A stretch of 64,000 nucleotides of DNA from Malania oleifera. Its lineage: Eukaryota; Streptophyta; Magnoliopsida; Santalales; Ximeniaceae. Under the pieces are notes generated by a model that was given only the letters and a program-made list of their open reading frames with translations, had not been told where the DNA came from and did not search any database. The position numbers and the translations under genes are program-made. Location of the stretch: positions 3,700,001-3,764,000 of the forward strand of contig NC_080422.1 of assembly GCF_029873635.1 (NCBI RefSeq), read 5' to 3'. Shown piece by piece: positions 1,619-52,790 of this stretch (positions within the stretch are counted from its first letter, which is position 1; the number at the start of each line of letters is the position of its first letter).

Positions 1619-2742
1619 GGGAGACTGTCCACACGTAGGCACGAGCGACTTATCTACCACGTATTATCTAAATAGGTGGTTGCGCTCTATGTTATATATA
1701 GCAACGATACCGTGTTCTGTAAACTGTATTTGTAATAGTCCATCAAGGTCTGATACTATATAATACATCTATATATACAATTATCTGTTTTACCATGATT
1801 CTGTAATAACTGTATTAACCATGATATTGTAGTAACTTGTAACTATATTAACTGTATTTCTAAGATTAACTGTAAATCTGTATGTCATGGTACTGTAAAA
1901 CTGTATAATCATGGTATTCTAAAAATGTTGTAAAACATATTCGCTGTTTATATATTTTGTATAACATAATTTTGAAAAATACTATAAAACATGTTTCTGT
2001 TCTATATTTATATTCTCAAGCCACACAGTAATTTAAAACATATTAAACATACTTGATAAACTGTATAAATTTCTGCTGTAAATAATAATCCGGTAAAAAC
2101 GTATAATTTATACTGAAAACATACTAGAACTACCTAGCGTAGCATGTTTCTCTTACCTTATCTTTGAAAAGTCCCTACTATACTTTGGCCCTATATCCGC
2201 AGGGTTCTCTACTTAACACCTTGAAAACGACATTCCCTAGAACAAAATATCAGTATTTCTTTGCATACAACATTTATTATAACTGTAAGGAAAGCAAATA
2301 CTAAATAAATGTCTTACCCTGAAATTGGGATGAATTTCAAACCAACTTCTCCAACGATCAACTCCAGTAGACTTGAAGAGAACTTCACCAGGATCGTCGT
2401 GATGACCCCAGATCTTCAATCCGGCGAGAAATGGAGCTAGGATCGAAGAGAGAAGGAGTGGGAGACATTTTAGAGAGAGAGAGAGAGAGGGTAATTTGCG
2501 CTAGAATTCTGTTAAAAATTCAAGTTTTCACTATTTATAGAGTCAGATTCGTCGACGAGTCCTGTAGAAAGTTCGTCGACAAACTCGCACCCTCATCGAT
2601 GAATTTCAGACTTCCAAAAATTCTCTCTCAGTATCTTCTCATCGACGAGCCGGGTCTTCGTCGACAAGATCCTAAAGAACCCTCGTCGACGAAACCCCTG
2701 TGTTCGTCGATGAGACCTAGAAGAATTTCTTGGGTTATTACA
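1619..2742 (-). mobile_element. Solo-LTR remnant, copy 1 of the LTR at 25386-27277
   Basis: This is the promoter-side part of a minus-strand LTR that ends at ...GGGTTATTACA, followed by the TACAA target duplication (2743-2747). Read on the minus strand it begins with a TCGTCGACGA palindrome array (about 2549-2718), then TATA (CTATAAATAG, about 2533-2542) and a CT-rich leader. Its other half is interrupted by the LTR at 1-1618 and lies outside the window. Only LTR sequence remains. Confidence 0.85.
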
Positions 2743-8330: not shown

Positions 8331-8382
8331 GGGATTTAAGAGTAAAGGAAAGAAGATGAAGGCGAGATAGAGAGAGGAAAAT

Positions 8383-8655: not shown

Positions 8656-8749
8656 AAAAAAAAAACGCTAATACTGGTGTCCAATACGGATACATTATAT
8701 TCATACGATATAGCTAAAAAATAATAATTAAATAAACTGTAACAAATAA

Positions 8750-9294: not shown

Positions 9295-9310
9295 TAGAGT
9301 GGCCTTGAGA

Positions 9311-13436: not shown

Positions 13437-14004
13437 AAGATAGAGAGAAAATATAACAACAACAATAACAATAAATCCAAACCTTAGTCCCACTAAGTGG
13501 GGTCGATTATATGAATCTTTTTTCACCAATTTATGTGATAATGGACCATTTTTTTTGATAGATTCAAGAATATTAAATTCTTTCTCATTATCTCCTCCCA
13601 AATTATTTTAGGTCTACCACTATCCCTTCTACGGCCTCCCACAGTAACTAAGTCACTTTTTTTCACAGGTGCACTATATGGCCTATGTTGCAAGTGTTCA
13701 TACGACTTGATTCGTCCATCCTTTATCTTATCTTCTATAAGAGTCACACCTAACTTACCACGAATATGTTCATTCCTTAATTTATCTTTCAATGTTATAC
13801 CACTCATTCATCTAAGCATTCTCATCTCAATAACTTTTACTTTTTGGATATTATGTTTCTTTGTCGTCCAACATTCTGATCCATATAGCATAGCTGGTCT
13901 TATAATTGTCTTATAAAACTTCCCTTTCAATTTTAAGAGTATTCAACGATCATATAGCACACTTGAAGCACTTCTCCATTTTACCCAACCTGTTTTAACT
14001 TTAT

Positions 14005-15822
14005 TGTCATGCCCCGAACCCCGAAATGGGACCCAAGGGTGAAAATGAAATCTAACATGTCCTTGTATCACACAAAACATCAATAGATACAGTACAACGG
14101 ATGAGGGTCCGACCCCGGGGGGTTTTCAAACACCCTAAACACATTCAAATACAAACATATGCGCAGCGAAAAAATGTCATTCTATATATAGATGCAGTAC
14201 CATACTAGAGTCTATACAAGAGCAGAAACATGCTTTATCAAACAACGTATAATTGGGTGCCCAACACATCCCAAAATGGCAACCCACCAAAACATAGTCC
14301 TAGCACTTACCCAAGCGATAACCGCAGTACACCGGCCACTACGTTCCCTACACCAGGACACTAGTTTCGGTTACTCGAAGGACCTGTAAAAATTTACGTA
14401 TAATAAGGGTGAGACACCTCTCAGTAAGGAAAAACACAGGTTATATCGGTGTGTGGCATTTGAGTGTTATCATAATGCAACATACACGTAGTTGAATGTA
14501 GTTCCAGTACTAATTTCACAACAGTGCATACACGCACGCACACACATGATCAGCAATCTCGGTGTCGTCACACCCATCGGCCTGAAGCTGGCCCGCAACA
14601 TATGACGTTGGCTCGTAGCCAACCCACGAACACGGCGCCACCGGCACATGGCTAGTCCCCGACTCCCATGACATCGTATCGGCGCTAAACAAGTGGATCC
14701 ACACCCTTCGGCCTGATCTGCCGGAATAGGCTCACACCTTCGGATATAGAGTCGGACACTCTCCCAATCTATGGTTAGCGATTTCATACACCCTCGGTTA
14801 TAGAGCTGGACACTCTCAGTACTTGGAATAATTCAGAACCGTGTTCCTACTAGCATTTCAACCAATCACATACACATGCATGCTCATATAACCAAACAAA
14901 CAACACCCATTTGGTAATCTAAAATCATGATTTTTCAAACACATACAGTTTAAAACAAGTCAAGGCACGGTCATCCCTATAACATAGTATAAATCAGCAT
15001 ATATGTTTGGTTTTCAACAAAACCAGGGATGCAACCCGTCGCCTCCTTTTCCCAAAACTGTAATCATGAAAAACCCATAATTTTCCCCCAAATTAGTAGC
15101 CAAAACACACATACGACCATGAACCACAGTTCTACGACTCCGATTTTAAAAATGACTGATATAAACACAATTTCCCTTACCTTTTCCCCAAATAGAAAAT
15201 CTTGAACTCTAAGACTCCTAACCAACGAACTGAGTTTCAAAACCTACAAATCATAGTACAGAATATACTCACAATACTATTCCCTACGAAATTACTGGAT
15301 CAGAATTAAACCCCGAGCCTTACCTCAATTTGACGCCAAAACCCGAAATTCTCCGAAATGGGATTCCGATCTGTAGAAGTTGTAGAGAATCCTTCCACAA
15401 TTCTCGTGGTAACTTCAGATTCACGATTCTCGTGACAAACAGCGAAAAATTCTAGAGAGAGGAAGTGTAGGGAGAGTTCTAGAGAGAGAGAAAAGATATT
15501 TGAGTTTCTTAATAGTTAAGCAATGAAATTGATATTTATAACCCCTTTGACCCGGCTACCCTCATCGATGAAATGGTGTCCTTGTCGACGAGGCTCTATA
15601 GTCTTCTTGTCAAAGAGACGGTAACCTCATCGACGAGCCCGAGAACACCGGTTTCCCGAGACTCCTTGGCTTCTTCTCATCGACAAGCCTCTGAACTTCG
15701 TCGACGAGAGATACAAGGCCTTCGTTGACGAACTCTGGCTTCGTCGACGAAGCCCGTTCAAATTTCAATTTTATCCCTATCTTATTTATTTAAACCCATT
15801 TATTACGATTCGGGTTCTTACA
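14005..15822 (-). repeat. LTR (3' LTR of the chromovirus)
   Basis: The LTR runs from TGTCATGCCCC to GGTTCTTACA. On the minus strand it starts with a TCGTCGACGA-type palindrome array (about 15550-15752), then a CT-rich leader; the conserved block seen as GGGTGAGACACCTCTCAGTA lies near 14409. Confidence 0.9.
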
Positions 15823-15836
15823 TCCTCCCCTCCTTA
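15823..15836 (-). promoter_or_regulatory. Polypurine tract of the chromovirus
   Basis: On the minus strand AAGGAGGGGAGGA sits directly before the 3' LTR, the usual site for plus-strand priming. Confidence 0.75.
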
Positions 15837-18800
15837 CAAAAATTTCATCCTCGACATTTGCCATCTCTCATTCACAACTCACACATGCAACTGAATACAC
15901 ATACGTCATTTTAGGAAGAAAATTGGCGACTATTACAACGTAGCCCCTTCATACACATACACACATACCCTCACTTATGGCGGAGGAATACTGTGGTTAC
16001 ATATACAACTGTCCTAGGAGTTCACAATACACATACTCCCGACGACTAACCACCTATCCCAACCCCAAGTAGGATAGTATACAAGTGCTCAAAACAACTG
16101 TGGATACTTCTGGTGTATTTTCGTTTCCAGTTCCCAAGAAGCTTCCTTAATCTCGTGGTTTTGCCACAATACCTTCACTAACGGTATCTCTTTATTACAA
16201 AGCATCTAAACTTTACGGTCCAAAACCTGAACAGGTACCTCCTCATATGCTAAAGTATCCCCAATTTCCAATTCATCATAGCTGATAACATGTGAAGGGT
16301 CTAACACATACCTCCTCAACATGGATACATGAAACGCATCGTGAACTCTCAAGAGTGCTGGAGGTAATGCAATCCTATAGGCTACCGGGTCTACTCACTC
16401 AAGAACCTCGAATGGTCCGATATACCTCAGGCTCAACTTGCCCTTCCTCCCAAATCTTATCACCCCTTTCATCAGAGCGATACGTTGAAATACCTTATCC
16501 CCCACCTCGAACTCTAAATCACAGCAGTGAACATCCGCGTAACTCTTTTGCCGACTCTGAGCTAATCTAATCCTCTCTCGAATCAAACCCACCTTCTCAA
16601 ACACCTGCTGCACAAGTTCAGGTCTTAACACCTGACGTTCACCAACCTCATCCCAACACAAAGGAGATCGACACCTCTGACCATACAAAACCTCAAATGG
16701 TGCCATCCCGATACTAGCTTGGAAGCTGTTATTATAAGCGAACTCCACTAGTGGCATAAACTGTATCCAGCTACCACCAAAGTCTAACACACAAGCTCGC
16801 AACATATCTTCCAAGATCTGTATCATCCTTTCCGATTGTCCATTAGTCTGAGAGTGGAACACTATACTAAAAGTAAGTTTTGTCCCCAATGCCTCCTATA
16901 AGCTCATCCAGAATTGAGAAGTAAACCTCGGATCCCGATCTGGAACAATGACACCGGTACTGCGTGCATTCTCACAATTTCATGCATGTTCATATCTGCT
17001 AACCTAATCAAAGGATAGCCAACCTTCATCGATATAATATGAACAGATTTTGTCAATCTGTCCACGATCACCTAGCTAGCATTCTACCCGTAAAGTGCTG
17101 GTGGCAATCCGGTCACAAAGTCTATGGAAATATGCTCCCATTTCCACACTGAAATTTGCAAAGGCTGCAATGGCCCAGTCGGCCTCTGATGTTCAGTTTT
17201 CACTTGCTGACACGTTAGACACTACTTCATGAACTAAGCAATTTGCCTCTTCATACCAGACCACCAGAAGGTCTCACATAAGTCTCGATACATCTTCGTA
17301 CTACTAGGATGTACCGTATATAAAGAACGATGCGCTTCCTCCAGAATCATCATTCTGATCTCGTCGTCATTTAGAACACACAGCCTGATCCCAAACCTCA
17401 ACACACCCCTGTCAGAGATGTTAAACTTTGTAGCTAGTCCCTACTGTACCTTTTCCATAATCTCAACTAACTCTGCATCACTAGCTTGCACGGCTTTTAT
17501 ACGCTCAAACAAGGTCGGCTGGACCACCAAACTAGCAAAGAAAGCCTAATGATCCTCGGATGTCAATTCTATACCTGAGCTCTCCATATCCCATCTGATG
17601 TGACGCTGAGTTACAACCGCAAATACAGTCGCAGGCCCTGACTTCTGACTCAACGCATCAGCCACCACATTAACTTTCCCCGGGTGATAACTAATCGTGC
17701 ATTCGTAGTCCTTAATCAACTCTAGCCACCGCCTCTGCCTTATGTTCAAATCCTTCTGTGTGAAGAAATACCTGAGACTCTTATGATTAGTGAAGATCTC
17801 ACACTGCACACCATACAAATAGTGTCGTCAAATCCTCAGTGCATATACAACAGCAGCCAATTCCATATCATGCATAGAATTATTCTTCTCATACTCTTTC
17901 AGTTTCCGAGAAGCATACGCTATAACCTTGCCCTACTACATAAGCACACATCCCAAATCCTTTAGAGACGCATCGCTATAGATCACAAACCCACCATCCC
18001 TCGAAGGAATGGTCAACACGGGAGTAGTAACCAACCGGTGCTTCAATTCCTAAAAGCACTGCTCGCAATCACTGGTCCACTCAAACTGCACTCCTTTCCT
18101 AGTCAATCAAGTCAGAGGCCCAGACAGTTTAGAGAACCCCTCCACGAACCGACGATAGTAACCCGCCAGTCCAAGAAAACTCTGAACCTCCTGCACACTC
18201 TTCGACCTCACCTAGTCGACCACAACTTCAATCTTGCTAGGATCAACTGATATACCATCACCAGTAACCACATGGCCTAAGAATGCAATCTGACTCAACC
18301 AGAATTCACACTTCTTCAGTTTAGCATACAACTTCTTCTCCCGTAGAATCTGTAATACTAACCTTAAATGGTCCTCATGCTCTTCCGAACTCCTCGAATA
18401 TATCAGAATGTCGTTAATAAATACCACTACGAACTAGTCCAGGTACTCATGGAAAACCCTGTTCATCATATCCATGAACATCGTCGGAGCATTCGTCAAC
18501 CTAAAAGGCATGACTAAGAACTCATAGTGGCCATATCTGGTTCGGAAAGTCGTCTTCGCCACATCCTCCAATCTGAACCTCACCTGATGATATCCTGACC
18601 GAAAGTCGATCTTTGAAAAGACCCTCATCCTCTGCAATTGGTCAAAAAGATCATCGATACGAGGTAAAGGATAACGATTCTTTATAGTTACCTTGTTAAT
18701 CTCACGGTAATCAATGCACATCCGCATCGACCTGTCTTCCTTCTTCACAAACAATACTGGAGCTTCCTAGGGCGAAACACTAGGTCGAATGAAACCCCTG

Positions 18801-20848
18801 TCCAGTAATTCCTGCAACTGCTCCTTCAACTCTCGAAGTTCTGCTCGAGCCATCCGGTATGGAGCTTTAGAGAACGACGTCTTACTAGGCAATAACTCTA
18901 TAGCAAACTCCACCTCTCAATCCGAAGGTAAACCAGATAAATCATCTGGAAACACATCCGGGAACTCGCCGACTACCCGAATATCCTTGAGTCTCAACTC
19001 ATCCCGTAGCGGTTCCTGCACACAAGCTAAGTACCCCTGACATCCGTCTAGGAGCAACATTCTCACCTGTAGGGCCAATAGAATCTGTGGTGCTGGACAC
19101 ACACATGATCCCACGAATTCATATTCCTACTTCCCAGAAGGTTTGAACGCTACTACCTTCTTATGATAGTCAATCACAGCATAACTGGAGAATAACCAAT
19201 CCATCCCCAAAATGACATCAAACCCGACATGTCGTATATCGCGAGTTTCGCCGGTAGTAGCTTCCCCTAAATTACCACTGGGTAGTCTTCCAACATCTTC
19301 TTACAAAATGATACACTCCCAGATGGCGTAGTAACAGATAACACCTCGTTCATGTCTCGGGTCTCAACCCTATACCATCCCCCAAAATTCGCAGATATAA
19401 ACGAATGGGTTGCACCCGAAACAAACAAAACAGAAGTTTTATTTGAAAACAATAATAAAGTACCTATCACCACGTTTCCTGCAAGTTCAGCGTCCGCTGG
19501 AGTAAGAGAATATACTATGGCCAGAGCTCTATTCGTCTGAACGGTTCCCCGAGGTATCTGGTTGCTTCCCCAGTTCACACTAGATGCAAGTACGTCTCGC
19601 TTTGGTGCACGACAATCACGAAATATGTGACCTGGCTGGCCACAGTTGTAATAGTTACCCCCAAATGACCGACACTCACCCTCGTGCCATCTACGGCATC
19701 TGATACAACGTCCAATAGTCTAGCTCGCCTAAGACTCCTGGCACTCGGTATTCTGACGGTAGCCCGAGCCTCTGTTCCTCTTCTTCCATGATCCCTGACA
19801 AGATCCTAACTGAGAACCAGATAGTACTGTCCTCTTCCTCGTTTCCTGATCCACCTCATCCTCTCAGATACCGGTCTCAATCATCGTGACTTTATCCACC
19901 AACACCGAGAACTAGCAGATCTGAAGCATACCCACTAGTTTGCGGATATCCTTCCTCAAGCCCTTCTCGAACCTTCGAGTCTTCTCATACTCGCTCGATA
20001 TCAAACACAGCGCAAATCGGGATAGCTCTATGTACCGAGCCACATACCCTTGCACCGTCATACTCTCCTAAGTCATAGCAGAAAACTCATCTGCCTTTGC
20101 ATCATGCACAGAAGCCGGGAAGTATCTGTCAAAGAATACCTCCTTGAAACGGCTCCATAACATCTCCTCAAGGCCGCCCCTCTGCTTCTCTAGCAAATTC
20201 ACTGTAGTCCACCATCGACCCGCCTCCCCAAATAGCTAGAAGGTAGTATAGAGGACTCGCTGTCTATTCGTGTAGTGCAGGACTTCCAAAATCCTCTCAG
20301 TCTTCTCCATCTTGTCCTCAGCTATCGTCGGGTCAGGTCCTCCAGAGAACGTCAGACGATGCATGCGTGTGAACCTCTCAATGGTGCATCCCGCAGCAGT
20401 AGGAGAGCGCTCGCGTCTCCTCACACTCCGCCCAATCTCCCATAAAACCTGCCTTGTCAAATCTCGAGGCACAAAAGGAGACTCATCATTCGCAGTCTCC
20501 TCGGAGCCACTTCCCAGGTCATTATCCTTGGGCTTCATTCTGCAGCTTAATAGGAAACTATTAGTATCCCTACAACACATATAGTTAACACAATGATTTA
20601 CACTAATTATGTTAACAACTCCCTGCCAGGTTCAGGTCCGTCCTATCACACCAGCACGAAAGTCATCAATGATCTGTCATGCTTTTACTGGAATCGTCAT
20701 TCCAGGAAAAATACGGAATATCGTCAACAAATCCCGGTCTAGCAACCGAACAACCCTCAACCAACTCTACCCACATCCACATCCTATACTCTGGTATGTA
20801 CTCACAGCTAAGCCTAACCAAGTCAACAAAACCTAACAATCTAGTTAA

Positions 20849-20862
20849 CTCTGATACCAAGT
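20849..20862 (-). promoter_or_regulatory. Primer-binding site (initiator tRNA-Met type)
   Basis: On the minus strand the internal region begins with TTGGTATCAGAG next to the 5' LTR. This matches the 3' end of plant initiator methionine tRNA. Confidence 0.85.
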
Positions 20863-22695
20863 TGTCACGCCTTGAACCCCGAAATGGGACCCAAGGATGA
20901 AAATGTAATCTAACATGTTCCTATATCACACAAAACATTCACAGATACAGTACAACGGATGAGGATCCGACCCCGGGGCGTTTCTAAACACCCTAAACAC
21001 ATCCAAACACAAACATATAAGTAGTAGAAAAAGGTCATTCTATATATATATGCAGTACCATACCAGAGTCTATACAAGAGCAGAAACAGACTCTATCAAA
21101 CAACGTACAACTGGGTGCCAACACATCCCAAAATGTCAACCCACCAAAATACAGTCCTAGCACTTACCCAAGCGCTAACCGCAGTACATCGGCCACTACG
21201 CTCTCTACACCAAAACGCTAATTACGGTTACTCGAAGGACCTATAAAAATGTACGTACAGTAGGGGTGAGACACCTCTTAGTAAGGAATAACATAGGTTA
21301 TATCGGTGTGTGGCATTTGAGTGTTATCATGATACAACATACACGCAATTAAATGCAGTTCCAGTACTAATTTCACAACAATGCTTACACGCACGCACAC
21401 ACATGATCAGCAATCCCGGTGTTGTCATGCCCATTGGCCCGAAGTCGGCCCTGACATACGGCGTTGGCCAATAGCCAACCCGCGAACACGACACCACCGA
21501 CACATGGCTAGTCCCTGACTCCCATGGCATCATACCGATGCTAAACTGGTGGATCCACAGCCTTCGGCCTGATCTGCAGGAATAGGCTCACGCCCTCGGA
21601 ATATAAAGCTAGATACTCTTTCAATCTATGGCCATCGATTTCATATGCCCTCGGATATAGAGCCGGACACTCTCAGTACTTGGAACAATTTGAAACCGTG
21701 TTCCTACTAGCATTTCAACCAATCACGCACACATGCATGCTCATATAACCAAACAAACCACACCCATTTAGTAATCTAAAATCACGGTTTTTCAAACATA
21801 TGCAGTTTAAAACAAGTCAAGGCACGGTCATCCCTATAACACAGTATAAATCAGCTTATACGTTCGGTTTTCAACAAAACTAGGGATGCAACCCGTCGCC
21901 TCCTTTTTCCAAAAACTATAATCATGAAAAACCCATAGTTTTCCCCGTTAGATCACCCCAAATGAGTAGCCAAAACAGACACAGGACCGTGAACCACAGT
22001 TTTACTAAGTCCGATTTCAAAAATAACCGATATAAACACAATTCCCCTTACCTTTTCCCCAAATAGAAAATCCTGAACTCTAAGGCTCCTAACCAGCAAA
22101 CCGAGTTCCAAAACCTACAAATCACAGTACAGAATATACTCACAATACTGTTCCCTACGAAACTACCGGATTAGAATTGAAAACTGAGTCTTACCTCAAT
22201 TTGACGCCAAAACCTGAAATTCTTCAAAATGGGATTCTGATCCGTAGAACTTGTAGAGAATCCTTCCACGATCCTCGTGGTAACTTCAGATTCACGATTC
22301 TCGCGACGAACGGCAAAGAATTCTAGAAAGAGGAAGTGTAGGGAGAGAGAGAGAGAGAGAGAGAGAAGATAATTGAGTTTCTCAGTGGTTAAGCAATGAA
22401 ACTGATATTTATAGCCCCTTTGACCCGGCCGCCCTCGTCGACGAAATGGTGTCCTCGTCGATGAGGCTCTATAGTCTTCTCGTTGACGAGACGGTAACCT
22501 CGTCGATGAGCCTGAGAACACCAGTTTCCCGAGACTCCTCGGCTTCTCCTCGTTGACGAGCCTCTGAACTTTGTCGACGAGAGATACAAGGCCTTCGTCG
22601 ATGAACTTTGGCTTCATCGACGAAGCCCGTTCAAATTTCAATTTTATCCTTCTCTTATTTATTTGAACTCATTTTCCACGATTCAGGTTCTTACA
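20863..22695 (-). repeat. LTR (5' LTR of the chromovirus)
   Basis: This is the partner of 14005-15822, from TGTCACGCCTTG to GGTTCTTACA. It carries the palindrome array at about 22435-22625, a (GA)n tract at about 22346-22367 and the conserved block at about 21266. Confidence 0.9.
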
Positions 22696-22903
22696 TTTAT
22701 GCATTACATCATTTTCAATTTCTCATTCAGCTTGCATAATAGATCCAATGTATCGAAATCTACAAGTGCTATTTATTTCATCATCATCAAGTTTAACTTT
22801 GTCTCTAATATTCCTCCTATCATTACTAAAATTACATTTCATATATTCTATTTAATTTCTACTTATCCTAAAGCCTCTAGATTCTAAAACTTCTGTCCAT
22901 AAT

Positions 22904-25385: not shown

Positions 25386-27277
25386 TGTAATGACCTGCTA
25401 AATTAACGGGGGGTTTTTTTTTTTTTTTTAGGTAATAATTATTAGGAAATTCCATTTCTCTAATACCTTCTTATATAAAATTAGTCATCCACCTAAGCAG
25501 CAAGAAGCTAAAATCACACAACCACCACCATATATAAATATGTACAATACCAAAGAGCTACAATGTTTCCAAACTATACATATATGATTGTTTCCCAAAA
25601 TACCCTCAACTAGGTTAGGGTTATATAGAAATACTCCCAAAAATACTCACTTTACAGACATGGCGGCACTGAAGTCGCACTACCTGCGAGCCTGATTTGC
25701 TCGCTTAACTGTATCACCTGAAAAATATTAATTTAATGGGATGAGACGACGCTCAGTAAGACGAAATATGTTATTACTAGTGTGTGGCAAATGAGTTACA
25801 ATACTATGAAAATTTATTTCTATATAATTATGTGTAACTGAATCTGTAAATGCAGTACAAGTAATATAAGCCACCACCTTCTTCCATGTTGGTTAACATA
25901 TCTGTACTTTAGGTTTCTATGCATAATACTTTTAATATATATATATATATATATATAAGTATATTCCTTATTTCTGTGAAACTGTACATACATAATAATA
26001 ACTGAAAACTTCTCTAGATGGATAACTATATGTCATGATTTAACCCCTCATAACAGGTTTGTGCGGCCCGTAGACGAGATCTAACTCTGACTAACCTACT
26101 CGGATAAACCACTATACTCCGTCAATTCGATCGGCCCTCCTCAACCCATATCTGATGGGGAGGTCGTCCACACGTAGGCACGAGCGACTTATTTACCACG
26201 TATTATCTAAATAGGTGGTTGCACTCTATGTTGTATATAGCAACGATATCGTGTTCTGTAAACTGTATCTGTAATGGTCCATCAGGGTCTGATACTATAT
26301 AATACATCTACATATACAATTATCTGTTTTACCATGATTCTGTAATAACTATATTAACAATGACATTGTAGTAACTTGTAACTATATTAACTGTATTTCT
26401 AAGATTAACTGTAAATCTGTATGTCATGGTACTGTAAAACTGTATAATCATGGTATTCTAAAAATGTTGTAAAACATATTCGCTGTCTATATATTTTGTA
26501 TAACATAATTCTGAAAAATACTGTAAAACATGTTTCTGTTCTATATTTATATTCTCAAGCCACACAGTAATTTAAAACATATTAAACATACTTGATAAAC
26601 TGTATAAATTTCTGCTGTGAATAATAATCTGGTAAAAACGTATAATTTATACTGAAAACATACTAGAGTTACCTAGCGTAGCATGTTTCTCTTACCTTAT
26701 CTTTGAAAAGTCCCTACTATACTTTGGACCTATATCCGCAGGGTTCTCTACTTAACACCTTGAAAACGACATTCCCTAGAACAAAACATCAGTATTTCTT
26801 TGGATACAGCATTTATTATAACTGTAAGGAAAGCAAATACTAAATAAATGTCTTACCCTGAAATTGGGATGAATTTCAAACCAACTTCTCCAACGATCAA
26901 CTCCAGCAAACTTGAAGAGAACTTCACCAAGATCGTCGTGATGACCCCAGATCTTCAATCCGACAAAAAATGGAGCCAGGATCGAAGAGAGAAGGAGTGG
27001 GAGACGTTTTAGAGAGAGAGAGAGGGTAATTTGCGCTAGAATTCTGTTAAAAATTCAAGTTTTCACTATTTATAGAGTCAGATTCGTCGACGAGTCCTGT
27101 AGAAAGTTCGTCGACAAACTCGCACCCTCATCGATGAATTTCAGACTTCCAAAAATTCTCTCTCAGTATCTTCTCATCGACGAGCCGGGTCTTCGTCGAC
27201 AAGATCCTAAAGAACCCTCGTCGACGAAACCCCTGTGTTCGTCGATGAGACCTAGAAGAATTTCTTGGGTTATTACA
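25386..27277 (-). mobile_element. Solo LTR in the LINE (partner of 1619-2742)
   Basis: The 1892-bp sequence runs from TGTAATGACC to GGGTTATTACA with TACAA target duplications (25381-25385 and 27278-27282). On the minus strand it has a TCGTCGACGA array (about 27088-27255), a TATA box, a GA/CT-rich leader and the conserved block near 25740. The part from 26157 belongs to the duplicated block. It has no coding sequence. Confidence 0.9.
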
Positions 27278-27371
27278 TACAACATACACCATTTTTTTCT
27301 AAAACCCACCATAAAACTTTCCTAGATATCCTATCATATGCTTTCTCAAAGATAGAGAGAAAATATAACAA

Positions 27372-28182
27372 TAAATTAATTTATCTCTCTCCGTCTCTCT
27401 AGTTTGAAGAGTGTTGTGTGTGTGTCGATTCGGGTAGTAGTTTTGGTCGTGCCCTTCTCGCTCCCGAGTCAACTAGAGCTCCCCCTAATGTATTGTCATT
27501 GCCCCTATCGAAAAAGCATATAATTTCAAACCCTAAAATGCCCATCTTGTTTCTTTAGTTATGCTTGATTAAATTTTCATTTTCCTCTCATATTTGAGAT
27601 AAAGAGAAATATATAATGAGAAATTAATTTATCTCTTTATTTTCTATTACAAAATCCTCGAACCAAATAGGTCTTGAATAATTCAGAGAGAGAGAGAGAG
27701 AGAACCGAACTAATAAAAGATATCAAGAAAAAAGATATGCTGATAAGATACATTTGGATAAATCCATTACAAGACATATTAGATTTAATCAAGTAGCAGT
27801 CAAATTTCAACATTATAACCTAAGATCCACTCTTCCAACATCAAGATGGTAGCATAAAATTGAATTTTCCCTTCTTTCTTTGAAATTTTCAAACTTGAAA
27901 GCAACATCATAATTCACAAGAATCAATTCCTAGGCTCAAGTCTCGTCGCTCGCATTTATTATATGGTATTTAAAAATTTATTATGTGTTTATCTCTCCAC
28001 ATGCTGCCGGACTACACATGTAAGGAAGTGTTAAAGCTTGATATACATTGTTTACCCACAATTTAACAACTTAAACTTTTAGGTAAAGTGGTAATCTAAC
28101 ATATAAGAATCAATCCCACCACTTCTATTCTGATTCCCAGATGAATCCTGCTTTGCCATCCTAGTTCATCAAAGTTGTATCA
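27372..28182. other. Downstream region of trehalase copy 2, no gene seen
   Basis: This is nearly identical to 2835-3645, differing by one GT unit near 27415. It includes the likely 3' untranslated region of trehalase. Confidence 0.5.
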
Positions 28183-31100: not shown

Positions 31101-32867
31101 TAAGAAGTTATTTTTTATATATAAGATGTTGCATTTTATAAAACAAAAAATATAACCTTATGGCATAAGCAAACTTTCGAACCCAACCCCCACCCCATTT
31201 CCCCCCCTAATCAACATCCTTACTTTTTTCTTTTTCTTTTTTTCTTTTTCAAAATATATAACTCAGGAAATTGATCTCCAAGATTTCTAAAGTCTGTCAA
31301 ATTTGAACTTTAATTTTTTTCAACATTTTTAATTTCTAATAGTGTTGCATCACCCATGTTGTGATACACAAAAAGACCGTGAAAGAGAAACATAATTGTC
31401 TAACCCTACAACACCTAGAGAAGGAAAACTCTTAAGATTGTTTGGAAGAATGGAATTTGATTTGGATTTGCATGGATATGTTCGAAAGTTAATAGCATTA
31501 GTAGATTTTGATACCTTCGATGTATCATGCAAGCAAAGGAAGAGATTGAAGAGGATGTGATTACAGAGTTAAAGTAGGTTAAGTAAAATGAAGGAGTGCT
31601 TTAGACGTATTGTGTGATTATAGAATACTCTTAAAATTAGAAGGAAAGTTTTATAAGATAACCATAAGATCAAGCATGCTATGTTGATCAGAATGTTAAA
31701 CAACTAAAAAGCAACACATCAAAAAGTAAAAATTGTAGATATGTGAATGTTAAAGTGGATGAGTGATATAACTTTAAAGGATAAATTAAAAAACAAACAC
31801 ATTATCAATATGATAGACATAACACTAGTAGAACATAAGACAAGAAAGGGGCAACTTAGATGACTTGAGTATTAGAATCATAGGTCAAGTAGTGCACCCC
31901 TAGAAGGAGTGAGTAAATTATTATTAACGGTAGTAGGAGTAGACCTAGACTTAAAATAACCTAGAATGAGCTATGAAAAAGGATCCAATAGCTCTTAAGT
32001 AAGTTGAGAAAATTGTCCATGATTGCATGAATTTTCCGAAAGGATTCATACAGTCAACCCCAATTAATGAGAGTTAAGGCTTGTTGTTGTTCTTTTGTTC
32101 AAATCCATAAAAATTCTATATTGTATTCTCCAAAAACTAGGTAAACAATTAAAACTAAATTGAATTTAGGAATGAGTAGATTTATGTAATGGTGGAATTT
32201 TAGTAATGCAAATTAGCTTGAGCATTGGAAAGGTCATGGAGGCCTCTCAATCTCTTCTTTCTCATGATTGAATGTCGATGAATTAGGGGATGTCCTCGTT
32301 CATTAAATTTTTCAAAAAAGGGTTCGATACTAACCTGATTACCCAGTAAGAATCCCAATAATAAACCTCCAAAAACCGGGACCCTGGAATCACGACCGGC
32401 GCCGGCAGAGGAAGCAGAGTATGAAAGTCCGGCTGCTTCCGGACGTCATCCGAGACTCTCCGGCTCAAGTTTTTCCAAAGTGAATGCACCTCCAACGCCC
32501 ACGCCCTCACATTCGGATGCTTCACGGCCGGCAAGAACCCCTCCGGCGTCGGTACAAAATTCGCCGGCAAAAAGTACACCAGATCATCCCCTGCTTCGTG
32601 GAAGTATTTCCCCAAGTAATCCTGCAAAGCTTCAACGGGAACTGACCCGTTTTTGGATCTGGGCAAGCTGTTGAAGGCTTTCTCGGTCGTCGATAGGTCG
32701 AATTTCAGGGACAAGTCGACGTACCGTTTTGGATCGAAACCGGAGGAGCCGAAGGTGTTGAGTGCGGTTTTCTGGACGCGTTGGAGGAAGGTGACGAGTG
32801 GGGTAGAGGGTTTTACGGGGCCGGAATCGGGAGGATTGCATTGCGATGGGGTTTCAGAAGCGGACAT
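28183..32867 (-). CDS. TRE1: Trehalase (GH37), copy 2, 11 exons
   Basis: The gene has the same structure as copy 1, each exon shifted by 24,537: 32335-32867, 30968-31087, 30378-30493, 30165-30265, 29949-30058, 29503-29575, 29249-29419, 29062-29149, 28857-28956, 28545-28758, 28183-28287. It also gives an uninterrupted 576-residue protein. I found two residue differences: position 10 is Cys here and Ser in copy 1, and position 214 is Tyr here, as in Arabidopsis, against Cys in copy 1. The likely catalytic residues D320 and E523 and the unusual QQWDFLNGWAP are shared, so that variant predates the duplication. Exons 3-11 and their introns are almost identical to copy 1. The upstream region differs: the TATA-like box of copy 1 is absent and several insertions and deletions lie in the leader and promoter. 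Confidence 0.93.
31527..32095 (+). mobile_element. Decayed LINE 3' fragment in trehalase intron 1 (copy 2)
   Basis: This is the counterpart of 6990-7560, with the same (TTG)n tail at its right end. The two copies differ at more than a dozen sites, unlike the rest of the gene. Confidence 0.65.
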
Positions 32868-32919
32868 GGGATTTAAGAGTAAAGGAAAGAAGATGAAGGC
32901 GAGATAGAGAGAGGAGAAT

Positions 32920-33015
32920 TTAGGGTTGGGGGAGCAAAAAGCCGCAATTAATGGAGGCGATTGGACGTTTTGGATGAGGCTGAAGACAAGGCGAGGATGA
33001 TCGAAGCTGATTCAT
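32920..33015 (-). other. 31-codon upstream ORF in the trehalase leader (copy 2)
   Basis: The same ATG and stop are kept as in copy 1 (8383-8478). It is out of frame with trehalase and ends 52 nt before its start. Confidence 0.4.
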
Positions 33016-35419
33016 GGTTTTATAAGCAGAATGAATCTGAAAAAGCAAACAATGAAAAAGAAGAGATAGAAGACGAAGAAGAAAGCTGAAGAAGAAGAAT
33101 AAAAAGTCGAGAGAGGAAGAATTCTGATTCTGTCATGAAAAGATTGAACAGAGACACTGCCAAAAGAGCCGGCAAAAGTAAGAATTTTTTTAAAAAAAAA
33201 AACGCTAATACTGGTGTCCAATACGGATAAAGATACGGATACATTATATTCATACGATACAGCTAAAAAATAATAATTAAATAAACTGTAACAAATAAGG
33301 GGGAAAGGCCGCGACCCATGAGTTTGGCGGGGTCCGAAGAGCGGCGTCAATGGCTGGAGTTTTCATGATAATTCAAAAATAATAATAATAATTCAATTAA
33401 TTATAATGGGTGAAAGAAAAGAGAGAAACTAATGAAGAAACTCATTTTTTCTTATACTTTCTTTTTATATTAAATTTTAAAAATAAAAAATTATTTAATA
33501 TAATTAAAAATTAAGAAAAACTAAATACTATTGATGTATAAAGTTAAATTTTTGTTTTTTTATTTTTTTTATTTTCTTTCTTATTTTCCTTAATAATAAT
33601 CAAACATGAAAATGCAAATTTTTTTTAAATTTGTTCCAAACAAAGCCTAAAAAAATTAAAATTTTGACATATAACCAATTCAATATATTTAAAAAAATAA
33701 ATTATTTATCAAGACTGTAAATAATCCAATGAGAGCTAATCACTACAAATAAAGATTAAAAAAGTAATTTTGTAGCTACTACTCTTGACATTCCCTAATC
33801 GCCACCTTTCTTACATTTGTGCATTATCCAACTCTAGTGTGTTTTCTTCACTCTAGAGTAGCCTTGAGAACAACAACAACAACAACAAAACCAAGTCTTA
33901 ATTCCACTAGGTGAGGTCGGCAATATGAATCATTTTCCGTCAATTTATGCGATCATGGACCATTTCTTTTAATAGATTCAAGGATATTAAATCTTTACTT
34001 ACTATCTCCTCTCAAGTTATTTTAGTCTACCCCTACCCCTTCTATTGCTCCCCACAGTAACTAAGTCACTCTTCCTCACAGGTGCACTATATGGCATATG
34101 TTGCAATTGTTTATACCATCTGATTCGTCCCTTCCTTATCTTATCTTCTATAGGAGCTAAACCTAACTTAACATGAATATCTTCATTCCTTAATTTATCT
34201 TTCAATGTTATATCACTCATCGATCTAAGTATTCTCATCTCAACAACTTTTACTTTTTGGATATTATGTTTTTTCGTCGCCCAACATTCTAATCTATATA
34301 ACATTGCTGGTCTTATATCCTATAAAATTTTCCTTTCAATTTTAAGAATATTCTACGATCACAAAGCACACTTGAAGCACTTCTCCATTTTACCCAACAT
34401 GCTTTAACTCTATGCATTACATCATCTTCAATTTCTCCTTCAGCATGCATAATAGATCCAAGGTATCGAAATCTACAAGTACTATTTATTTCTTCAACAT
34501 CAAGTTTAACTTTGTCCCCAATATTCCTCCTATCATTACTAAAATTACATTTCATATATTCTGTCTTATTTCTACTTATCTTAAAGTCTCAAAATTCTAA
34601 AGCTTCTCTCCAAAATTTTAACTCGGTATCTACTTCGTCCCTAGTTTCATCAATTAATACAATATCATCTGCAAACAACATACACCATGGAACCTCTTTT
34701 TAAATACTCTTCGTAATAACTCGAGGAATTTTTCAGCATCTCGTCGACAAACACAGGGGATTTGTCGACGAGGATATAAGAGGAGTTCGTCGACGAGGAT
34801 AGGTTTCGTCATCGAGGACAGGTTTCGTCAACGAGAAAATAACGAGAGATTTTTGGGGCAATCTGAAATTCATCGATGAGGGGGGAAGTTCGTCGACAAA
34901 ATTCCTTAAGGACTCGTCAACGAGATGACGTGTCTCGTCGACGAATCCGGGGCTATAAATAGTGAAAACCCAGATTTTTCAGCAGAAAACTGGCGCAAAC
35001 TTTTTCTCTCTCTCTCTAAAACGTCTCCCACTCCTTCTCTCTTCGATTCCGGCTCCATTTCTCACCGGATTAAAGATCTGAGACCACCACGATGCTCCTG
35101 ACGAAGTTCTCTGCAAGTCTGCTGGATCTGATCGTGGGAGAAGTTGGATTAAAATTCATCCCAAATTTAGGGTAAGGTGTTTTATTCAGAATCTGCTTTT
35201 CCTGCAGTTCTAAGAAATGTTGTTTGCAGGAAAATACTAATGTTTTATTCTGAGAGATGTCATTTTCAGGGTGTTGAGTGGAGAACCCTACAGGTATAAG
35301 GCTAGAGTTCAGTGAAAATTTTTCAGAAACTAGGTAAGGAAAATATGTTATACTAGGCAATTCTAGTAAGTTTTCAGCATAAATTATACGCTTTTACCAA
35401 ATTATTATTTACAATAGAA

Positions 35420-35465
<46 letters not shown>

Positions 35466-36589
35466 TGTATACCAATTATTATACAGAATATGAGTTTTTA
35501 AAGTATGTGTGGCCTAAGTAGATATTATTTGTATACCAGTTAGATATTTACAGATTTTATACAGACAGAATACATATACATATACAGTTTTATTCAAATG
35601 ATTACACAGACAGATATATATATAGCAGTATACAGATGTTTATTCAGATCAGTATATAGAAAGTTATGTTTTCCTAAATGCCATAACACTCAGAGTATAC
35701 AGATAGATTGTACAGACAAAGTATACAGACAGATGATACAACTTTAGCATCAAGATGCTACAAATATTACAGTATTTACAGTACAGAATTATAGTGTTAC
35801 GGTTATTTTGGAAACATAATGAAAACAGTAAAAGAGTATATATGTATATATATAGTATCAGATCCCTGTGAAAAGATTACAGATAGATACAAATACAAAA
35901 TATAGAGCACGATACCGTTGCTAATACAGATAGAGTGCAACTACATATCTCAGATAGTGTGTTGGTACCGTCAACTATGCTCGGAGAGTATGCAGCTCCC
36001 CAGTTCGCTAGGTTGAGGGAGCTAGTTTGACGAGGTAGCGGCCAGTCTTGAACCTAGAAGTGGATGCAATTTGGACGAACAGAGGTAGAGTAGAGTATAG
36101 TGACTTACCTAGAGGGTCGATCAAGTTAAGTCCCGCCAACAGGCCGCACAACCCTATCATGAGGGGTCAAATCATGACATACAGAGTTCCAGGGATAAAA
36201 GCACAGTTATGTATATGTAAACAGTTTTACAGTATTTGATAAATATAGTATGATATTAGCAGTATGAAAAGTAGAAAACTTAGTTGATACAGTTATGTTT
36301 TTAAACTGCGAAAAATGTAAGATATGTTTTACAGATTTACTCTTTATTACAACTCAGATGTTATTTAAAGTATATGTAGCTTAGTTACCACACTCTAGTA
36401 ATAGCATATTTCCACTTATTGAGCGTCGTCTCACCTTATTATTCTAACATTTTTCAGGTGAACCAGTTAGGCGAGCAAATCAGGCTCGCAGATAGAGATT
36501 TCTAGATTACCCTGGTTGTAGGGTGAGTTTGTGACAGAGTTTTATATTTGTGGAATAGATGATACTGGAGGGAAATGTTTTATGGCTAT

Positions 36590-38523
36590 TGTAGTAACCC
36601 GTAAAATAATGGAATTTAAAGAAAGAGGGAGAGAAAATAGAAACTGAAACAGAAGGAGGTCGTAGAGTTCGTCGACGAACACAGCGTCTCGTCGACGAAG
36701 GTCTTCAGAATTTCGTCGACGAACACAGGGCTTCGTCGACGAGAAAATAACGAGAGATGGTTCAGGCTGCTCTGAATTTCGTCGACGAATATAGGGCCTC
36801 GTCGACGAATTTTACGAAGGGCTCGTCGACGAGGTGACGTGTCTCGTCGACGAACTTGGCCCTATAAATAGTGGAAACCCAGGATATTTATCATTTTCAC
36901 CGCGCCTCTCTCTCCTCTCTCTCTCTCTACGTCTCCCTCTCCCTTCTCTCTTCGATTCCGACCCCACCAGTCGCTGGATCGACGATCCGAAGCTACCACG
37001 ACACTCCTGGCAGAGTTCTTTGCACATCTACCGGAGCAGATCGTCAGGAAAACAGAGTTGGATTTCATCCCAAATTCAGGGTAAGGCCTTTTAGCTAGTT
37101 TTTGGCTTTCTGACAGTTATAGGAAATGATATAGACGGAAGATTACTGATATTTTGTTCTAGCATATGTTGGTTTCAGGGTGTTTTGTAGGAGGCCCTGC
37201 GGGTGTTAGGCTTGTATTCCCTAGGGGCTTTCCAGTAGTCAGGTAAGGAAAATATGCTATGCTAGGCATTTCTTAAAATATGATACAATTTATTTAATTA
37301 TGAAAATTATGCATTTAGTATGGTGTGGCTTGTGAATATGTATATGGTACGGGGATATGTTTTACGAATTTAGTTTCATGATTTTATGAATTTCAGTATT
37401 ATGATTATGCGAATTTTAGTATCATGATTTTATGGATTTTAGTATCATGATTATACGGATCTCAGTACCATGATTACATGAATTTCAGTATTATGATCAT
37501 GCAGCTTCAATATTATGATTATTCAGTTCTCAGTATTACATATGAATTACAGTTACAATTTATGCAGCATCATGGTTATTTCAGTACTTCAGAATCATGA
37601 TAAATCATATAGATATATATATATATTATATGATATTAGACCCTATTAGACTTGCAGCTACAGAGCACGGTACCGTTGCTACAGATACTATGTTACTTAT
37701 TTAGTGCAACCACCTATTTAGATAATACGTGGTAAGGTCGACCACCTAAGCCCTTGAAGAGGTTAGGCTCCCTATCCAGATATGGGTTGAGGTGGGCAGG
37801 TCGACTGACGGAGTTCAATGATTTATTCCTAATTGGCCAGTTAGGGTAAATCCAGCCTATGGGCCATACAACCCTGTCATGAGGGGGGCAAGTCATGACA
37901 CACAGATAGCCACAGGGAACAGTTTCAGTTACTATTACATACGTACGGATTTACAATAACAGGGACTATACTTATGTACACTAGAAGTATTTGAATTATA
38001 ACCATAATACTATCACGTTAAGCAATAGGGAAAAGGGGTGGTGTATTCTATTATTTGTACAGTACTTTTGTACTCAGTTATTCATGTGTATATGAAAACA
38101 GATTTCATGATATATAGTAGCTCATTTTCCACACACTAGAAATAGCATATTTCTCCTTACTGAGCGTTGGCTCATCCCAGTGTTGATATATTTTTCAGGT
38201 GATCCAGGTAGGCGAGCAGACCAGGCTGGCAAATAAAGGGGTTTCAGTAGTGCCCTGCCAGAGAGTGGGTATGTTTTTGGGAGTATCTTTGTACATCCCA
38301 GTATAGTTGAGGGAATTTTTGGGAAAATAGATATATGTGTATATTTTGGGAAAAACATGGTAGCACTCTGGTATTGATATTGTATGATATGGACACTTTA
38401 TTCAGTTTATGCTTTTCGCTACTTAGGTTTATGATTGAGTTTTTCCCCAGTATGGTATTAGAGCATGTAAAATATTATAGTATGGGAAAAAAAAAAACTC
38501 ATTTAATTAAGCAGGTCGTTACA
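36590..38523 (+). mobile_element. Solo LTR nested in the previous LTR
   Basis: The 1934-bp sequence runs from TGTAGTAACCC to GGTCGTTACA with GCTAT on both sides (36585-36589 and 38524-38528). It has eight exact TCGTCGACGA palindromes, TATA (CCTATAAATAGTGG near 36862), a CT-rich leader, GAGCACGGTACCGTTGCTA near 37664 and the conserved block near 38160. It has no coding sequence. As the innermost layer it is the youngest here. Confidence 0.92.
36668..36854. repeat. TCGTCGACGA palindrome array (best-preserved example)
   Basis: Eight exact copies of the 10-bp palindrome TCGTCGACGA lie in under 190 bp, ending just upstream of a TATA box. Spacing alternates between short and longer gaps, and many copies are followed by ACACAGGG or ATATAGGG. 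Confidence 0.95.
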
Positions 38524-41762: not shown

Positions 41763-42101
41763 TTGATTTTTTAACCATTAAGCAAGTGAAATAGATATTT
41801 CTAACTTGGTTGATCTGGCCAAACTTGTCGACGAGACGACGTCCTCGTCGACGAGCTACAGAAGGAAACTAGTCATCGTCAAGGTGAACTCATCGACGAG
41901 CCTAAAATTTTAGGATTTCCCAAAATCTCTCGGTATCTCCTCGTCGACGGACTATCGAATCTCATCGCCGAGCTACACAAGAGACTTCATCGACAAGAAA
42001 AGAAACCTCGTCGACGAGCCCTGCTGATTTTTCCCTTTTTAATTTTCCCTCTTTTTTTTTCTTATTTATTTAATACTCCTATCTCGGGTCGGATTCTTAC
42101 A
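40223..42101 (-). mobile_element. Solo LTR of the chromovirus family
   Basis: The left end ATCACGCCCCGAACCC and right end GGATTCTTACA match the LTRs of the chromovirus at 14005-22695. GACCT flanks both sides (40218-40222 and 42102-42106). It has the conserved block near 40628, a 60-bp (GA)n tract (41699-41758) and a TCGTCGACGA-type array (about 41826-42019). It has no coding sequence. Confidence 0.88.
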
Positions 42102-48545: not shown

Positions 48546-49086
48546 TGTAACGACCCGGAAAATATTAATATTTAAATATTAAAGAGAGAGGAAAAATGGA
48601 AACAGAAACGGAAGGAGGAAGTAGGTTTCGTCGACGACTTTGCATTTTGGAGATAATAATAATTTTAAGGAATTGCCAGGACTCGTCGACGAATACAGGG
48701 GTTCGTCGACGAGTGCATAAGTAAATTCGTCGACGAATACAGAGTTTCGTCGACGAGAAATTATCGAGTGAAAAATGGGCTGCTCTGAATTTCGTCGACG
48801 AGAAATTACCGAGCGAAAAATGGGCTGCTCTGAATTTCGTCAACGAATACAGGGTTTTGTAATTCGTCGACGAGAAATTATCGAGTGAAAAATGGGCTGC
48901 TCTGAATTTCGTCGACGAGAAATTACCGAGCGAAAAATGGGCTGCTCTAAATTTCGTCAACGAATACAGGGTTTTGTAAATGAATTTAATGAATGACTCG
49001 TCAACTAGGTGACGTGTCTTGTTGACGAATCTAGCCCTATAAGTAGTGAAATTTTGGATTTTTATCCATTTTTAACGCTACTCACT

Positions 49087-51369: not shown

Positions 51370-52790
51370 ATTTCATTTTGATTAAGCCGACCTCCAAGGA
51401 GTGACTGAATTGCAATGGTCTCCGAGCACTCGCTAAGATTAGATCTTTCTTAAGCATCAAACATGGAATTAAGGATCCTAATAGAGAAAGACATTCGTAT
51501 TGATATTAACTTAATGAGTATTGATGACAACAACCCATTAGCAGTTCTTTAAGGCTACTAACCTTTTTCTCTAAGTCATGTTCAACTGCACAGAACGGTA
51601 CCAGAACCAACAAGTTTCAAATCAGTCGAAGCAACTCGTGACATGACCAAAAGCACAGCCACTCAAAGCATTTCATGGACTCTACACAATATACATGTGG
51701 TCTAAAGGATGAGTGTGAAATTGAGAGAGACTATTTTGTAAATCCCTTGTATATGGAGTGATTCAAAATTAAAAGCAAGAAATGGGCATATCACACACAC
51801 ACAACATAAACAAGTAAAGCTATTAAAAGTGTCTAAAGAAACCCTCAAACGAAGACCTTCTTAGAACTTAAAAGAAAATTTTCTAAGAAGTAAGAAGGGA
51901 CTCGTCGACAAACACAGGGCTTGGTCGATAAGTGTAACACAGACCTTCGTCGACGAACACAGGGTTCTCGTCGACGAAAAGAAACCGAGAGGCACCTGAA
52001 TTCAGAACCAGCATCTCGTTGATGAACACAGGGCTTCGTCGACGAATATATTTAAGAGCTCGTCGACGAAAATAAACCGAGACCTATCTGAATTCAGAAC
52101 CAGCAACTCGTCAATGAACATAGGGCTTCGTCGACGAATTGATTGAAGAACTCGTCAACGAAGTATGGACCTTGTTGACAAATGTCGGGCTGCAGGGTTC
52201 ATTAAATGCCGTAGAACGGCTAGTTTGACCCTTGTCTTGCATCAATAAATGTCCAACGGTTCTCCAGCGACCAGCTCGCCCATTTGATATTTAAATAAGG
52301 GTTATTGCATTTACTTCACACTAAGAAAGTTCATTTTGCATCTAGATCATTTATTTGTGCTTTCATTTTAGGGTTTGCTCATACACTCACTTGCCCTCTT
52401 CTTGCTGCTCTTACTTTTGTTTCTACTCCATTGAAAAGAGGACATAGTGTGAGAATATTATTGTGATACTCAGTTCAAAGGGAGCATTTAAATTCACATC
52501 CACTTCTCATCAACTTCTTATAAAGAAAGGCCCTTTGTGAGCCATTGTAGGGTATCTCTAAGTTGGTATGCACAATAGGAGCCATTGTGTACAGGTTTAT
52601 ATCAGTAAATTAATTGATAACACATGAAATAAAGCCTAAAGACCCAGAAGATCTGTCTTGGGTTGAAATTCATATTATGTTTATCATTGGGTTTGTAATA
52701 GTAATTAAGTCTTATGGCTTGTAATAATTGCATGCATCACCTGCACGATCTAATAGGTAAGCTCTAACCAACTCAAAATAAAAATTACCT
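51370..52790 (+). mobile_element. Copia-like LTR stretch with a TCGTCGACGA array
   Basis: The sequence has GTATTGATGACAACAA near 51520, a palindrome array (51901-52172), then a TATA-like TATTTAAATAAG near 52287 and a leader with CTCTTCTTGC. The layout is that of an LTR promoter. Ends and target duplication were not found, and the copia likeness is general. It has no coding sequence. Confidence 0.4.
51901..52172. repeat. TCGTCGACGA palindrome array
   Basis: About ten sites such as TTCGTCGACGAACACAGGG are arranged as in the Ty3-like LTRs, including the ACACAGGG spacer, although the surrounding sequence is different. Confidence 0.85.

Follow-up and report, generated by a model that had tools for sequence, protein, structure and literature searches.

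In the genome of Malania oleifera a CG-rich 10-bp palindrome, TCGTCGACGA, forms arrays of regularly spaced boxes shortly before the TATA box of long terminal repeats (LTRs). Palindrome arrays in this position were described as a hallmark of Sireviruses; here they occur with the same spacing in LTRs of Ty3/gypsy type, in those of a Sirevirus-like Ty1/copia family and in those of another Ty1/copia family, and the array is the only DNA that we found to be common to the Sirevirus-like and the gypsy LTRs. These observations suggest that distantly related retrotransposon families depend on a common regulatory switch, which they may have exchanged. The reading we favour, with moderate confidence, is that the arrays are clustered sites of a putative dimeric protein, probably of the host, which drives LTR transcription, and that the array passed between lineages.

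Arrays in the window

The window, i.e. the whole stretch of 64,000 nt of contig NC_080422.1 that was analysed, contains 34 exact copies of TCGTCGACGA; none occurred in any of 20 first-order Markov shuffles. Sites with up to two mismatches number 101 (some overlapping), vs a shuffle mean of 8.25. A preliminary description, made from the letters of the window, had reported eight exact palindromes in <190 bp before a TATA box and a recurrence of this layout at nine further places. Both statements were borne out: the eight boxes of array A are followed 9 bp on by TATAAATA, and arrays were found at all ten places (Table 1), with 7–12 boxes each at up to two mismatches, on both strands. Most boxes have one or two changes, except in arrays A, E and F. 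TATAWA is situated within 60 bp of seven of the ten arrays. As to the others, array E has TATAAGTA instead (by eye), array G has a decayed TATA on its minus side (by eye, aided by homology) and array F, located in another kind of LTR, is without TATAWA within 60 bp.

Table 1. Arrays and associated features in the window (assignment of the arrays starting at 2549, 15562, 22435, 27084 and 41825 to the minus strand is our reading)
Feature	Position	Strand	Remarks
Array B1	2549..2713	-	7 boxes, 2 exact; TATA on minus side
Array C1	10182..10385	+	9 boxes, 1 exact
Element D (Ty3/gypsy)	14005..22695	-	LTRs 22695-20863 and 15822-14005, 87.6% identical
Array in 3' LTR of element D	15562..15750	-	7 boxes, 2 exact
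Coding region of element D	16092..19719	-	Broken Ty3/gypsy pol: RVP_2, RVT_1, RT_RNaseH, SH3_Tf2-1
Array in 5' LTR of element D	22435..22623	-	8 boxes, 1 exact
Array B2	27084..27248	-	Duplicate of B1
Array C2	34741..34944	+	Duplicate of C1
Array A	36669..36853	+	Eight exact TCGTCGACGA boxes in Ty3/gypsy-type LTR; box starts 36669, 36689, 36713, 36733, 36779, 36799, 36823, 36844; spacing 20,24,20,46,20,24,21
AACGAGAG	36749..36756	+	Second conserved element, in central gap of array A
GGTGACGTGTC	36833..36843	+	Final spacer of array A, contains ACGTG
TATAAATA	36863..36870	+	9 bp past final box of array A
Array G	41825..42017	-	D-type LTR, decayed TATA
Array E	48628..49028	+	12 boxes, 8 exact; then TATAAGTA
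Array F	51902..52161	+	9 boxes, 5 exact; LTR of Sirevirus-like Ty1/copia family

Some features of the window stand apart from the arrays as such. Array E was enlarged by a 117-bp tandem repeat (48746–48979, 99% identity), which added boxes recently. Positions 1619–10910 and 26158–35483 are two copies of a 9.3-kb duplication (97.5% identical); each of them has array-bearing LTR sequence at both ends, in opposite orientations, and includes a trehalase-like ORF on the minus strand (7746–8474 and 32283–33011; Pfam match on the first copy).

Abundance and position of boxes in the genome

The genome searched (1,494,336,490 bases or 1.49 Gb, in 510 contigs) has 132,361 exact copies of TCGTCGACGA, vs 1,383 copies of the reversed string and 433 copies of TCGACGTCGA, a palindrome of the same composition. 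In 17,084 cases (9,085 and 7,999 by strand, two boxes sharing one TATA being counted twice) TATAAATA is present within 30 bp downstream of an exact box, vs 3 cases for the reversed pattern, and pairs of boxes separated by 9–11 bp number 13,519 vs 0.

For a closer inspection 20 stretches of 10 kb were chosen by place before inspection, of which 18 existed (180 kb). Exact TCGTCGACGA was present in 11 of these 18 stretches, at 30 copies per 180 kb, and all but one of the 30 were members of clusters of at least three boxes; with the window added, this is true for 62 of 64 exact copies. There were thus 26 clusters, 10 from the window and 16 from the 18 stretches. TATAWA was found within 60 bp in 20 of them (random placement, 18%). 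Homology downstream of the boxes, including some short hits, placed 24 clusters in LTRs. The LTR type was found beside a Ty3/gypsy pol for 23 clusters (22 by hit, some hits being short, and element D itself counted), and one cluster belongs to family F. The remaining two (L013 4853 and L015 7456) were assigned to a third LTR family, designated H; identity of the L013 cluster to H is 75% over 193 bp. The proposed tie of the clusters to LTR promoters was not refuted in this sample, with 24 clusters in LTRs, two in the third LTR family and 20 near TATAWA.

Ten box-pair loci in viral contigs were read as chance occurrences; they have two to four exact boxes each in the part examined, without arrays, and nine of the ten have GC content of at least 0.58.

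Spacing of boxes

Successive boxes are generally ~20, 24, 20, 46–51, 20, 24 and 20 bp apart, and with such fixed intervals the array consists of two quartets parted by a gap. Arrays differ in box number. In the 26 clusters 149 of 160 intervals measure 19–21, 24–25 or 44–51 bp, and the same holds for 249 of 274 intervals in a set of 44 U3 regions. This set includes four references from the window and 40 U3s hand-picked from 100 listed places at which an exact box and TATAAATA are no more than 30 bp apart.

The sets for families A and D were made from 20 each of the places listed. Among the 21 U3s of family A (the best matches to the window copy, this copy counted) 16 have the exact spacing 20,24,20,46,20,24,21. 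Among the 22 U3s of family D, likewise best matches to the window copy, all eight boxes at ~19,24,21,50,20,25,20 are present in 10, another 10 are one box short with the register kept, and two are irregular. The spacing could be partly inherited instead of selected.

Besides the boxes, two short elements recur in the spacers. The 18 of the 44 U3s that were off the eight-box layout were left out of the counts of gap elements and of spacer complementarity; in the 26 kept, which are partly related, CGAGAG is located just past the fourth box in 15 central gaps (the best 6-mer of shuffles, 6), and ACGTG is present in 10 last spacers (the best 5-mer of shuffles, 5). The ACGTG in the last spacer of array A is similar to a bZIP/ABRE site.

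Conservation, half-sites and decay

The complete motif is 12 bp long, Y-TCGTCGACGA-R, or YTCGTCGACGAR. In the window and the 18 stretches Y precedes the box in 192 of 198 boxes and R follows it in 193. The two flanks vary independently of each other (p 0.77), as one would expect of two subunits that each recognize one half-site.

Comparison of U3s between families (504 pairs) gave a mean spacer identity of 0.40, while box positions outside CpG were 0.954 identical and CpG positions 0.734 identical; in this comparison the last box was omitted, and the boxes anchor the alignment, which flatters box conservation. The 504 pairs are those with spacer identity <0.5 out of 828 having enough columns (118 of 946 failed the column filter). 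Within families, conservation over all letters was 0.932 in boxes vs 0.936 in spacers for family A and 0.880 vs 0.894 for family D; with non-CpG letters alone the values became 0.994 vs 0.939 and 0.920 vs 0.898, respectively. In family D the non-CpG modal value just of the sequence upstream of the array is 0.941, higher than that of the boxes (0.920). Boxes are no better conserved than spacers within a family because the CpGs of the boxes decay. The expectation that boxes would be better conserved than neighbouring bases is thus correct between families (0.954 at non-CpG letters vs 0.40 in spacers) and, within families, for the non-CpG letters (0.994 vs 0.939 in family A), but not over all letters.

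In the 198 boxes 201 of 1,188 CpG positions are changed, 193 of them by C>T or G>A, and 14 of 792 non-CpG positions. Judged by this pattern, the decay of box CpGs, chiefly C>T/G>A, appears to be that of methylated DNA. The preliminary description had also offered a role of the palindromes as CG-methylation hubs. A hub alone does not fit and was ruled out, since the best kept letters of the box are those outside CpG.

The LTR pair of element D has 17 changes in boxes, all private to one LTR, with 0 of 80 sites altered in both, and the spacers differ at 5 of 109 positions. Given that all changes are private, the boxes were intact when D was inserted and decayed later in the manner of methylated CpGs. 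The array pair of L010 was excluded from this insertion test. Its treatment as an LTR pair was rejected, as 54 of 126 spacer columns differ between the two arrays and both have a change at 1 of 60 box sites. The two arrays (L010 1092–1277 and 8278–8419) flank one Ty3/gypsy coding region and have similar boxes and divergent spacers, as if the element were a recombinant or the second array came from another insertion.

Ty3/gypsy elements with arrays

Element D has LTRs of 1,833 and 1,818 bp (ends read by eye), a 5-bp target duplication ATAAA at 14000–14004 and 22696–22700, and the primer site TGGTATCAGAG. Its putative lineage is Tekay/Del. The Chromo model located after the integrase tail scored 16.3 bits in D and 12.6 bits in L022, both below the cut-off of 25.1. 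The order of RVT_1-type reverse transcriptase, RNase H and integrase (Pfam; order by tblastn) was observed in D, L010, L012, L014, L018 and L022, with the reverse transcriptase part of L022 absent from the stretch examined. Pieces of pol related to that of D were detected in 7 of the 18 stretches at 42–84% amino acid identity (self matches aside); they are accompanied by arrays in L010, L012, L014, L018 and L022 and are without arrays in L019 and L024. LTRs of the array type adjoin Ty3 pol in L010, L012, L014, L018 and the window.

The boxless L024 represents a sister family of gypsy type, which belongs to this pol lineage too and has 920 candidate copies. Since this family is also common, success does not depend on the array. 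Its upstream region (L024 4985–5160; C7:2004985–2005160) has AGATATTT/AAATATCT repeats in place of boxes, and these repeats resemble the evening element.

Ty1/copia families F and H

Array F used as a query matched 1,418 candidate places, and among the 40 scored there were three direct pairs 8.3–10.5 kb apart. In one copy the LTRs are 94.5% identical and have 11 boxes each (up to two mismatches); each LTR lost one box, a different one in each, from the common layout 20,25,21,48,20,24,21,48,20,24,20. Between these LTRs gag_pre-integrs, rve and SH3_retrovirus are situated upstream of RVT_2, which is the Ty1/copia order of pol, and none of the Ty3 pol pieces matched the internal DNA of F. Two further pairs of F arrays enclose the same pol (79–93% amino acid identity by piece). 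In one element the polypurine octamer AGGGGGAG is present twice in exact form ahead of the 3' LTR, at distances of ~60 and ~410 bp, and the tract at the junction itself is a variant, AAAAAGGGGAG, instead of exact AGGGGGAG. Repetition of this octamer near the 3' LTR, with one copy at the junction, is given as a Sirevirus trait in the available part of the Sirevirus description (PMC2829016). The ORF located downstream in F is env-like by position only, with no Pfam match. A TATA-like stretch was seen by eye ~108 bp past the array. Sireviruses with an env-like gene have copies of their motif in the linker as well. F differs in this respect: outside the LTR arrays of L118/L119 only isolated sites with two mismatches were found, and in L117 no exact box.

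Gypsy-type LTRs (A, B, C and E) are homologous to the F LTR in F 427–729 alone, with the array occupying 428–729; no homology of F to the gypsy LTRs was found outside the array, and none at all between the F and D LTRs. Identical 10- and 11-mers, ACACAGGGCT and ACACAGGGTTC, are present in spacers of F and of gypsy-type arrays. The mean score of F vs gypsy spacers was higher than in all 100 shuffles in three of three length classes and the best-match score in two of three, as the long-gap class passes on the mean score and fails on the best match.

Family H, for which 2,278 candidates and, among 40 scored, six direct pairs 4.4–4.7 kb apart were found, is a Ty1/copia element of ~5 kb with Retrotran_gag_2 and RVT_2, whose pol is 28–33% identical to that of F at the amino acid level. 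The AGGGGGAG octamer was not found in its copies L122 and L123. Each LTR of H has four boxes with spacing 21,25,21. Comparison of H spacers with gypsy spacers indicated a modest relation, with scores above shuffles in forward orientation in both classes and, barely, in reverse in one. The 3' LTR of H carries GGAAATACCGAGAG, the element of the gypsy central gap, which was also seen by eye in the gypsy-type U3 L075. Given the spacer relation and GGAAATACCGAGAG, common descent of the array may extend to H. Two more boxes of H are located 64 and 43 bp ahead of the 3' LTR as aligned (L122 4603–4633; C9:2958802–2958832). They recall the motif copies that Sireviruses have in the linker, but the LTR could begin ahead of its aligned start.

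A putative dimeric factor and a shared array

From the box, its spacing and position, and its patterns of conservation and decay we infer the following mechanism, in which the protein, its dimeric state, its activating role and its sensitivity to methylation are predicted. One sequence-specific dimeric DNA-binding protein would recognize the half-site YTCGTC, two such half-sites meeting head to head (YTCGTC–GACGAR). The boxes would serve it as quartets ~20, 24 and 20 bp apart in U3, and the bound dimers would form a proximal enhancer of the LTR promoter. The distance from array to TATA is mostly 9–21 bp in gypsy-type LTRs and ~90–110 bp (to a TATA-like stretch, by eye) in the two copia families. 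Methylation of the three CpGs of a box would probably abolish binding, the copy would become silent, and C>T/G>A decay would follow. Of the earlier proposal of binding sites for a dimeric factor, the sites are well matched by two independent half-sites, and the protein itself stays putative. A factor of the AP2/DREB kind, with its GTCGAC-like core, may be a candidate binder. The available part of PMC5893645, consulted for AP2/DREB and such a core, has it only as a SalI cloning site in primers.

The presence of the array in several families and the homology confined to it were observed; a direction of exchange would be conjecture. The protein would most likely be supplied by the plant, and for this reason the same array would be used by distant lineages, namely chromovirus-type Ty3/gypsy elements, Sirevirus-like elements and another Ty1/copia family. 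At least the gypsy and Sirevirus-like elements would share the array alone by descent, as if a cassette had been exchanged. That the cassette did move between superfamilies, with one host factor as a shared on-switch, so that lineages are switched on together and compete for the factor, is a conceivable scenario that we lean slightly against. If our reading is true, transfer of regulatory modules from one superfamily to another is possible, and a large part of the retrotransposon load of a genome may be under the control of one host protein; the 12-bp site would be a clean bait for isolation of this protein from nuclear extract.

With regard to origin only, the lineages could have converged independently on the site of one host factor, without exchange of DNA. 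The confinement of the detected F LTR homology to the array would agree with such a course, as would the merely modest relation of H spacers and the fact that a second palindrome with a GTCGAC core was also amplified. Still, the identical ACACAGGGCT and ACACAGGGTTC in F and gypsy spacers, spacer scores above shuffles, and GGAAATACCGAGAG in one H LTR and the gypsy-type U3 L075 (by eye) speak against an independent origin, and we consider it rather unlikely. Pairing of boxes into a hairpin of RNA or DNA is a different matter: boxes would pair in the 3' end of the transcript, and the long stem would serve the element or feed small-RNA silencing, an idea put forward earlier for LTRs of maize Sireviruses. 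Array A does fold as RNA at −102.4 kcal/mol vs −65.2 for shuffles (z −9.5), but good folding is expected of any array of palindromes. The spacing is mirror-symmetric; yet the complementarity of mirrored spacers is about that of shuffles (S1/S7 0.331 vs 0.316; S3/S5 0.321 vs 0.310), S2/S6 exceeds shuffles to the same degree in either sense (0.444 and 0.446 vs 0.361), and direct similarity of spacers is clear. Palindromic LTR regions of maize Sireviruses with predicted structure attract small RNAs (second hand, from the available part of PMC10760457). Association of decay between positions is a weak point in favour of pairing, with one of five tests nominally significant (CpG1–CpG3, p 0.015, uncorrected) and positions 3 and 8 close to it (p 0.055), whereas no pairwise match was observed between the two letters that flank a box (p 0.77). 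A hairpin thus seems an unlikely basis of the array.

Two further explanations retain a factor without activation, or no function at all. In the former the factor would mainly remove DNA methylation or keep it off, like VANC on VANDAL, instead of activating transcription directly. The dense non-coding arrays of motifs are similar to VANC targets as given in the available part of PMC5735166, and the CpG observed/expected ratio is 2.18 in array A vs 0.53 in the remainder of its LTR. However, no extra ORF of at least 110 amino acids was listed past the integrase in one gypsy copy (L010), and the modal value of CpG columns in family A is 0.891 in boxes vs 0.899 in spacers (8 spacer columns); the box CpGs decayed about as much as spacer CpGs, so silent copies were not protected. 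We hold this role to be improbable. In the latter, the boxes would be a neutral relic of tandem duplication, spread with successful families. Tandem duplication did build the array, as the direct-repeat similarity of spacers indicates, box number varies between arrays, and whole boxes are no better conserved than spacers within families. A relic without function of its own is nevertheless hard to credit when non-CpG box letters are 95% identical where spacers are at 40%, when the same box is present in gypsy and copia LTRs and when the boxes of D were intact at insertion.

Relation to known arrays

The preliminary description had considered arrays of this kind to be without a described name, which is not right: LTRs of Sireviruses, which are Ty1/copia elements, are known to have, not far ahead of TATA, palindromes in repeated copies, termed the repeated motif or RM (Bousios et al. 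2010, PMC2829016). RM is present in 8–32 copies per element, is mostly CG-rich and CpG-island-forming, and its motif is element-specific; 92% of the copies in LTRs are situated in the upper half of the LTR. It was described as specific to Sireviruses, with a CGG-CCG signature in 12 of 13 elements (PMC2829016). The Vitis RM, CGGTCGACCG, and the TCGTCGACGA box have a GTCGAC centre in common. Array A (eight boxes, TATA 9 bp on) and array D (eight boxes, TATA 20–21 bp on) are similar to RM, as is family F, with 11 boxes per LTR; family H, with four, has fewer than eight copies upstream of TATA. Array F, found in a Sirevirus-like element, is of the same kind with a new palindrome. Unlike RM, YTCGTCGACGAR is without the CGG-CCG signature, the LTRs that carry most of the arrays examined here are of Ty3/gypsy type, and the boxes keep a fixed spacing of ~20/24/20/46–51.

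A palindrome cluster of maize Sireviruses (2016, as related in the available part of PMC10760457) is likewise located in the LTR regulatory region and has a predicted secondary structure, but its motif is another one and its lineage mostly so; also, complementarity outside the boxes is here about that of shuffles in two of three comparisons. Arrays targeted by VANC in VANDAL elements (Hosaka et al. 2017, available part of PMC5735166) are also dense, non-coding arrays of a short motif that evolve by tandem repeats. In contrast to the boxes, the VANC21 motif YAGTATTAY is not palindromic, and the DNA transposon itself encodes the protein that binds it; in one gypsy copy here (L010) a gene of this kind was not seen.

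A text search of the published literature found no retrotransposon report with the exact TCGTCGACGA 10-mer, and in titles and starts of abstracts, Sirevirus papers aside, we found neither the same array in Ty3/gypsy LTRs nor an exchange of U3 between copia and gypsy. Judged by the literature searched, the array in Ty3/gypsy LTRs appears to be new.

The window has a second palindrome-like array at 52817–53415, with ten TGGTCGACCG sites, nine of them in 53074–53415. The 541 bp around it have 8,609 candidate copies, with no obvious LTR pairs among the 40 scored. TGGTCGACCG is one letter off the published Vitis Sirevirus motif CGGTCGACCG and is found 61,296 times in the genome (30,453 + 30,843), vs 704 for the reversed string.
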